Below are positions 8,191 to 61,681 of a stretch of 64,000 nt of DNA, one piece after another. The translations under genes were made by a program, and so were the position numbers. The notes below the pieces were generated by a model, which was not told the origin of the DNA, did not search any database, and saw only the letters and a list, made by a program, of their open reading frames with translations. The stretch comes from Prochlorococcus sp. AG-459-B06 (GTDB lineage: Bacteria; Cyanobacteriota; Cyanobacteriia; PCC-6307; Cyanobiaceae), in the NCBI GenBank assembly GCA_003209475.1, contig QCQY01000005.1:1-64000 (forward strand), written 5' to 3'. Every line of letters begins with the position of its first letter. Position 1 is the stretch's first letter.

Positions 8191-8218
8191 AAAAAAAGAG
8201 AGGGATAAAACCCCCTCT
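8191..8218 (-). terminator. Rho-independent terminator for the riboswitch/56 aa ORF unit
   Basis: Minus strand AGAGGG-GGTTTTAT-CCCTCT followed by a T run. Confidence 0.75.
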
Positions 8219-8243
8219 TGATTAATCAGTTTCAAAAAAGAAT

Positions 8244-8414
8244 TTAATTTTTTGAGTCTTTCAATTTCATTTCTTTTTGTGTTTTCCTGATTCTTTCTTC
8301 AAAGAGGGATCTTCTGTATGGAGTAACTTCTCCACTTTTAGTAGCCAAAAGTTGAGCTTCATATAGCCTATTGACTCTTTTGATTTTTTCTCTTATTTGT
8401 AAGAGGTTATTCAT
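8244..8414 (-). CDS. 56 aa peptide downstream of a predicted glutamine-II riboswitch
   Basis: MNNLLQIREKIKRVNRLYEAQLLATKSGEVTPYRRSLFEERIRKTQKEMKLKDSKN*. Confidence 0.7.
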   Translation of the reverse strand: MNNLLQIREKIKRVNRLYEAQLLATKSGEVTPYRRSLFEERIRKTQKEMKLKDSKN

Positions 8415-8429
8415 GGTCTTTTGCAGTTA

Positions 8430-8489
8430 ATGAGAATCCCGTTCCCTATTCCCATTTCATGCGTCCAGAGATATAAACTTGGATGAACG
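8430..8489 (-). promoter_or_regulatory. Predicted glutamine-II (downstream-peptide) riboswitch
   Basis: Minus strand CGTTCATC…TGGA CGCAT GAA ATGGGAAT AGGGAACGGG ATTCTCAT. P1 CGTTC/GAACG; crossing pseudoknot ATGGGAAT/ATTCTCAT; shares CGTTCATC, CGCAT and GGAACGGG with the copy at 28394. Confidence 0.78.
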
Positions 8490-8603
8490 TTAGTGAACAA
8501 TAACATCTTTAGAAAAATTTCGCGAGAGTAATTTTACTAAATTTTTCTCAAAAAAATAAATATTAAAAAAGACCTTATAAATAAGGTTTTACTATTTCCT
8601 AAA

Positions 8604-28368: not shown

Positions 28369-28393
28369 TAAAATGTAGCGTAGACTACATAAA

Positions 28394-28452
28394 CGTTCAT
28401 CTCGTTCTACGAGCCGCATTAAGATTGAAGCCAAGGAACGGGGACTTCAATC
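28394..28452 (+). promoter_or_regulatory. Predicted glutamine-II (downstream-peptide) riboswitch
   Basis: P1 CGTTC (28394-28398)/GAACG (28436-28440); P2 CTCGT-TCT-ACGAG (28401-28413); crossing pseudoknot GATTGAAG (28423-28430)/CTTCAATC (28445-28452); ATG at 28457. Confidence 0.85.
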
Positions 28453-38130: not shown

Positions 38131-38335
38131 TTTTAAATTGATCGTCATGAGTGTTTGTCAATAGGGATACTGTCAAGCACTTTTTTATTAGAAAAAATAT
38201 TTGAAAAAAAAAGAGATTGTTTCTTAGCTAATAACAATCTCTCAATTACCTAATTCTTACATGAAAAATTTCAAGTAAGTAAAAGACTTTAACTGATTTA
38301 TTTTTATAGTAAAAACGTAAAAATGCTTTTATTAT

Positions 38336-60315: not shown

Positions 60316-61681
60316 TAGTTTACTTAGAGCCCCTAACCAGAGTATTGAAGAAACTGGTTATGCTTGGTATGTAGGTAACGCCAGATTAATTAATTTATCT
60401 GGCCGTTTACTTGGAGCTCATATTGCACACACTGGTCTTATTGTTTTCTGGGCCGGTGCAATGATGTTATTCGAAGTAAGTCATTTCACATTCGATAAAC
60501 CGATGTGGGAACAAGGCTTAATTTGTATGCCTCATGTTGCAATGTTTGGATTTGGAATAGGTCCTGGAGGAGAAGTTACTGATGTGTACCCATTCTTTGT
60601 GGCTGGTGTGATGCATTTAATTTCTTCTGCAGTCTTAGGATTTGGCGGTATCTACCATTCCTTAGCAGGTCCAGAAAAACTTGAACAAGATTTTCCTTTC
60701 TTTTCAACAGATTGGAGAGATAAGAATCAAATGACTAATATATTGGGTTATCACTTAATAGTATTAGGCGTTGGTGCATTATTTTTCGTTTTTGATTGGA
60801 TGTTCATTGGAGGCGCTTATGATACATGGGCACCTGGTGGTGGAGAAGTTAGGTTAGTTAGTCCTACATTAGATCCAAGAGTAATACTTGGTTACCTATT
60901 TAGATCTCCTTGGGGGGGCGCTGGTTCAATAATCGGTGTTAACTCAATAGAAGACATAGTTGGTGGTCACGTATATGTTGGAATTACTGCGATAATTGGT
61001 GGTCTTTTCCATATCTTTACCAAACCTTTTGGATGGGCAAGAAGAGCATTCATCTGGAATGGTGAAGGACTATTAAGTTACGCTCTTGGTGGAATTTGTG
61101 TAGCAAGTTTTATTGCTTCAACATTCATCTGGTTTAACAACACTGCTTACCCTTCAGAATTTTATGGCCCAACAAATGCTGAAGCTTCACAGGCTCAAAG
61201 CTTTACTTTCCTAGTGAGAGATCAAAGAATTGGAGCTAACGTAGGTTCAACAATGGGACCAACTGGTTTAGGTAAGTATCTCATGAGATCTCCTACTGGT
61301 GAAATTATATTTGGTGGTGAAACAATGAGATTTTGGGACTTCAGAGGTCCATGGTTAGAGCCTTTAAGAGGACCTAACGGATTAAGCCTTGAGAAAATCC
61401 AAAATGATATTCAGCCTTGGCAGGTTAGAAGAGCCGCTGAATATATGACTCATGCTCCTAACGCTTCTATCAACTCTGTTGGTGGTATCATTACAGAGCC
61501 TAATGCTGTTAACTTCGTTAATTTAAGACAATGGTTAGCTGCAGCTCAATTCTTCCTAGGATGGTTTACATTCATTGGTCACCTTTGGCATGCTGGACGT
61601 GCTAGAGCAGCCGCTGCTGGTTTCGAAAAAGGAATCGACAGAAAGAGTGAGCCAGCTCTTGAAATGCCTGATTTAGATTAA
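60299..61681 (+). CDS. psbC: Photosystem II CP43 protein
   Basis: GTG start at 60299 overlapping psbD by 17 nt: [44 protein letters not shown]. Confidence 0.98.

Follow-up and report, generated by a model that had tools for sequence, protein, structure and literature searches.

Cyanobacteria use distinct RNA elements to sense glutamine, and these can precede genes for small proteins. The downstream-peptide motif was named after its short-ORF context (Weinberg 2010, PMC2864571), and the initial account of Yfr6 presented it as a functional RNA about 244 nt long that contains a 33-aa reading frame (Axmann 2005, PMC1242208). The wild-type RNA in the glutamine-II crystal-structure paper comes from Prochlorococcus sp. 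RS01 (Huang et al. 2019, PMC6698751); the crystallized form has a shortened P1 and was solved with glutamine bound, and L-glutamine binding was demonstrated for this P1-shortened RNA, which is nearly identical to the element described here. According to the published view, P1 and P2 are already present in the ligand-free RNA, and glutamine stabilizes the pseudoknot (PK), which the authors suppose competes with a structure hiding the ribosome binding site. A review states that a type 2 switch of Prochlorococcus turns expression on when glutamine is present (PMC6316151).

We analyzed a window of 64,000 nucleotides from Prochlorococcus sp. AG-459-B06 (the whole stretch, positions 1 to 64,000 of contig QCQY01000005.1), whose minus strand carries a compact unit made of a leader, a basic 56-aa ORF and a terminator. 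A sequence-only reading of positions 8191-8489 had proposed such a unit, and the sequences and coordinates that it quoted are all present on that strand. Our main reading, to which we assign a probability of about 0.85, is that a riboswitch and a coding gene would here be joined under glutamine-ON control, the direction being taken from published work on this class. The unit comprises the following features.

8500-8529, minus strand: promoter-like region, ACTCTCGC-N16-TGTTAT, conserved across Prochlorococcus 56-aa units, which have it instead of an NtcA box
8430-8489, minus strand: glutamine-II aptamer, 60 nt
8485-8489, minus strand: 5' strand of the PK helix, CGUUC, partner of GAACG at 8440-8444
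8480-8483, minus strand: 5' side of the P1 hairpin, UCCA, partner of UGGA at 8464-8467
8464-8467, minus strand: 3' side of the P1 hairpin, UGGA
8448-8455, minus strand: 5' strand of P2, AUGGGAAU, containing 8449, the sole base unlike the crystallized RNA
8440-8444, minus strand: 3' strand of the PK helix, GAACG, whose last two residues are C39 and G40 (crystal numbering), both glutamine contacts
8430-8437, minus strand: 3' strand of P2, AUUCUCAU
8409-8414, minus strand: AUGAAU, start codon and codon 2, with GUUCAU (8483-8488) as predicted partner when the PK is unformed (putative OFF state)
8244-8414, minus strand: 56-aa ORF
8196-8219, minus strand: strong intrinsic terminator, hairpin of -14 kcal/mol, z -3.5

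Rfam model RF01704 matches positions 8430-8492 of the minus strand with 47.0 bits, above the curated gathering cutoff of 33 (E = 2.8e-8), and the element is part of the 5' UTR that precedes a short ORF in a marine picocyanobacterium, with the start codon 15 nt past P2. Covariation backs all three helices. Among the leaders of 84 unique relatives, the PK is paired in 420/420 cells, and three deep members show a swap from C-G to G-C; both sides of P2 vary, with several two-sided changes, yet 96.7% of its cells are paired; and P1 is paired in 97.0%. Folded alone as a single strand, the 60-mer is not significantly stable (z 0.26), as expected, because nearest-neighbor folding is blind to a pseudoknot. 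By its Rfam score and this covariation, 8430-8489 is a genuine glutamine-II (downstream-peptide) riboswitch, its glutamine binding being deduced from that of the near-identical RNA. The same two lines of evidence led us to rule out a chance hairpin. That AT-rich intergenic sequence came to resemble a riboswitch by accident has negligible probability and is refuted by the E value within the window, by the conserved pairing and by an identity of 59/60 nucleotides to the published RNA.

The covariation-like support that the sequence-only reading had drawn from two elements is thus real among relatives, and its view of their common topology stands, but the helices need renaming: its P1, CGTTC/GAACG, is the PK of the literature, its pseudoknot, ATGGGAAT/ATTCTCAT, is P2, and the P1 hairpin, TCCA/TGGA, which is the third helix, had been missed. 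Likewise, what it called the second glutamine-II riboswitch is indeed one, but is one of four in the genome. The others are the sister copy at 28391-28450 on the plus strand of the window (RF01704, 64.9 bits), which serves a 109-aa unit; a copy before a 33-aa DUF4278 peptide, MTLTYRGQKYVQN..., of the Yfr6 type (PMC1242208); and one before a peptide with an LTYRG motif. The 56-aa and 109-aa proteins show no resemblance, as had been claimed. The fourth genomic copy lies on the minus strand (L003, C4:62998-63060) and has the variant strand CGTCC; the peptide that follows reads MVNMYFNGKSFVYCRKQEEKIIKLTYRGSIYSK by eye. Other Rfam matches in the window are IsrR (antisense to isiA) and the Yfr19 small RNA, at 60713-60896 and 38198-38280, both on the minus strand.

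Of its 60 positions, the window RNA departs from the published wild-type RNA at one, a G-to-A change at 8449 that turns a G-U wobble of P2 into an A-U pair. The RS01 RNA shares with ours the three helices and the ligand-contacting nucleotides; the differences are this pair and the shortened P1 of the crystal construct. All of C1, G2, G18, C19, C39, G40 and G41 (crystal numbering), which make the ligand and triple contacts, are unchanged in the window. Furthermore, the exact published RNA precedes the 56-aa ORF in 46 of the 115 nonredundant Prochlorococcus units that we collected. Therefore, on these sequence comparisons, the crystallized RNA and the window element are orthologues. The riboswitch itself is thus already known, nearly to the base, and so is the context of a short ORF behind a glutamine-II aptamer (PMC2864571).

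The cargo sets this unit apart from its described relatives. Like the downstream-peptide motif and Yfr6 (PMC2864571 and PMC1242208), it joins a short ORF to a glutamine-II aptamer in its 5' UTR, but Yfr6 comes with an NtcA box and a 33-aa DUF4278 peptide, whereas the 56-aa unit encodes a different protein and, in Prochlorococcus, lacks that box. With the type 2 switch before PMM1846 (PMC6316151), it shares the aptamer class and a small basic protein downstream; PMM1846, however, is a DUF4278 protein, and the window protein has no DUF4278 match. The glutamine-I (glnA) riboswitch of gifB/IF17 has the same ligand, ON direction and kind of cargo, a small protein (PMC6316151), but folds as a three-way junction rather than a pseudoknot and controls another gene; Rfam gave no glutamine-I match in the window.

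The 56-aa protein is small (6.8 kDa) and basic (pI 10.3), and its AlphaFold model, from single-sequence input, is a two-helix hairpin with a mean pLDDT of 89. Since Yfr6, the RNA of a sister unit, entered the literature as a functional RNA (PMC1242208), the RNA of the present unit could likewise be what functions, with the ORF incidental. We consider this very improbable: dN/dS among orthologues is about 0.20, with third codon positions varying most, most differences in ORF length amount to a few codons at the C-terminal end, and amino acid conservation extends to other genera. In an alignment of 19 diverse family members, 15 columns are invariant. Judged by these substitution patterns, the 56-aa ORF is a real gene under purifying selection.

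Throughout Prochlorococcus, and in related genera as well, aptamer and ORF are retained as a pair. Neither outcome named as refuting the sequence-only reading, a lack of covariance-model support or a lack of conservation in related genomes, was observed. The protein occurs in 113 of 151 sampled Prochlorococcus genomes, often with a second copy that is about 75% identical. Among 90 close relatives, a strict pattern places the aptamer directly upstream in 87, and the three exceptions have visibly point-mutated aptamers. Diverged copies retain the aptamer, their start codon lying 30 to 33 nt after the beginning of GGAACGG; at two of the diverged loci the aptamer has decayed. A family profile search found remote relatives in 19 of 40 sampled Cyanobiaceae genera. 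At 19 of the 20 remote loci fetched, a glutamine-II match, in some cases scoring just under the gathering cutoff, lies immediately upstream; at the remaining locus the copy is mutated. Three relatives of the unit, L065, L097 and L106, carry point mutations in the core of the aptamer; L106 has lost its start codon as well (ATT), and these loci form a natural decay series. In Synechococcus-type relatives (L411 to L420), the protein has 59 aa and contains RLHxAQL twice, as if the N-terminal helix had been duplicated. A phage origin was considered and dropped, no relative having been found in a phage collection or in viral contigs; an aptamer-pattern scan of the viral contigs was set aside, as the pattern has two long gaps and many chance matches are expected.

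Searches of Pfam, NCBIfam and the PDB returned no significant match for the 56-aa protein, and the Pfam profile of DUF4278 (PF14105) did not match it. In most other glutamine-II units, the product is a DUF4278 protein with LTYRG motifs, and the window protein might itself be a divergent DUF4278 protein or an IF17-like glutamine synthetase inactivating factor. It is small and basic and stands behind the same riboswitch as the DUF4278 genes, and PMM1846, a glutamine-II-controlled protein of Prochlorococcus, has IF-like traits (PMC6316151). Moreover, in two remote relatives, L382 and L375, the N-terminal helix of the 56-aa family is joined to YKG/YRG motifs, and L375 matches DUF4278 with an E value of 2e-4. 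Against this, the window protein has no Pfam match, profile comparison (hhalign) of its family with DUF4278 proteins gave a probability of 20%, and inhibition of glutamine synthetase by such proteins is unproven in picocyanobacteria (PMC6316151). The inactivating factors IF7 and IF17 bind and inhibit glutamine synthetase, and the 56-aa protein resembles them in its small size and basic charge. On balance, we judge membership in either group unlikely, and since the direct profile comparison is weak, the window protein is not classed as DUF4278. The two chimeric relatives hint that the 56-aa family was derived from, or fused to, DUF4278 proteins, and they are a possible evolutionary link between the two types of cargo. 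Both are glutamine-II controlled; L382 lies on the reverse strand, with an ATG near position 383.

The promoter region also distinguishes the 56-aa units. A perfect NtcA box (GTAN8TAC) is present in 54/57 and in 43/47 DUF4278 units and in all four 109-aa units, and usually ends 3 to 7 nt ahead of the aptamer. In the window, one such box, GTAGCGTAGACTAC, at 28375-28388 of the plus strand, lies just upstream of the glutamine-II element of the 109-aa unit; the same box precedes two other genomic glutamine-II copies but not the 56-aa unit. GTAN8TAC was not found at the latter, in a search of the perfect consensus only, by which a degenerate site would be missed. Among Prochlorococcus 56-aa units, 1 of 102 has a perfect box, about the chance level. 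In remote members of the family, an NtcA box is found in 15 of 24, mostly 10 nt away. Instead of an NtcA box, Prochlorococcus 56-aa units carry a box, CTCTC[AG][CT], whose end lies 32 nt ahead of the aptamer in 90 of 103 units; in 87 units, a spacer of 16 nt separates it from TGTTA or a close variant. Because the perfect NtcA box is absent and this other conserved box is present, the 56-aa unit seems, from its upstream sequence, to lie outside direct NtcA control, while glutamine sensing by RNA is kept. The absence of the NtcA box and the alternative promoter box of the Prochlorococcus 56-aa units are new points. A wider set of genes sharing the ACTCTCGC promoter box was considered and rejected: the exact arrangement of ACTCTCGC, spacer and TGTTAT occurs once in this genome, and relaxed matches numbered 6 against 4 in the control.

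These features outline how the unit may work. It would be a self-contained glutamine-responsive gene, with its promoter, an aptamer at or near the 5' end of the mRNA, the 56-aa ORF and its terminator. Glutamine would withdraw the CGUUC strand from a competing helix that covers the start of translation, allowing the small basic protein to be made, and low glutamine would mean less translation. In the folded leader of the window (computed without pseudoknots), GUUCAU pairs with AUGAAU in both the minimum free energy and the centroid structures, with a probability of 0.59. Across the Prochlorococcus family, this start-codon helix has a mean probability of 0.36, compared with 0.08 when the flanks are shuffled. 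We propose tentatively, at somewhat less than even odds and for this leader, that the masked site may be the start codon itself.

Control could equally be exerted at another step, through masking of the Shine-Dalgarno (SD) sequence by a hairpin in the early ORF, through mRNA stability or through premature termination. We regard this as a serious possibility, if short of an even chance. The start-codon helix is not favored in remote relatives (mean probability 0.03), and in several of these the SD sequence pairs with early ORF sequence instead; on the other hand, the AUG is masked in the predicted fold of the window leader, and the minus-strand stretch from aptamer to ORF yielded no terminator-like site, which favors translational control. 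Both sides of the start-codon helix are nearly invariant, so covariation provides no proof of it, and the compensated PK swap disrupts it in the three deep members that have this swap. A change of codon 2 from AAT to AAC accompanied by A to G at aptamer nucleotide 6 was rejected as proof of covariation, because a change at nucleotide 6 also goes along with one in its partner within the aptamer (A-C to G-U). Start-codon masking as a rule for all glutamine-II units was likewise rejected: outside the 56-aa family, strand-swap and shuffle tests showed weak differences only, and the helix is not favored in remote members.

Beyond the switch itself, the genomic context allows a guess at what a glutamine-ON unit of this kind would do. 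As proposed for other cargo of glutamine-II switches, the 56-aa protein may be a small effector that, under nitrogen-rich conditions, damps the assimilation of nitrogen, a role that we consider plausible, if less likely than not. A broader conjecture, which we hold to be rather improbable, is that the 56-aa family could form a second, as yet undescribed, branch of small regulators gated by glutamine in picocyanobacteria, with its riboswitch kept across the Cyanobiaceae and, in Prochlorococcus, no NtcA operator, such that nitrogen status would be read by RNA only.

Our analysis links the RNA of a solved structure to a specific conserved gene for a small basic helical protein, a gene under purifying selection and coupled to glutamine sensing across the Cyanobiaceae. 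The absence of the NtcA box separates transcriptional sensing of 2-oxoglutarate from RNA sensing of glutamine within one family of units, so that the two inputs can be compared. The regulation of glutamine synthetase in marine picocyanobacteria has been called unclear (PMC6316151), and the 56-aa protein is a concrete and cheaply testable candidate for a part in it. If the conjecture of a second branch were true, the 56-aa family might supply the small inhibitor that is missing for glutamine synthetase or for some other nitrogen enzyme.
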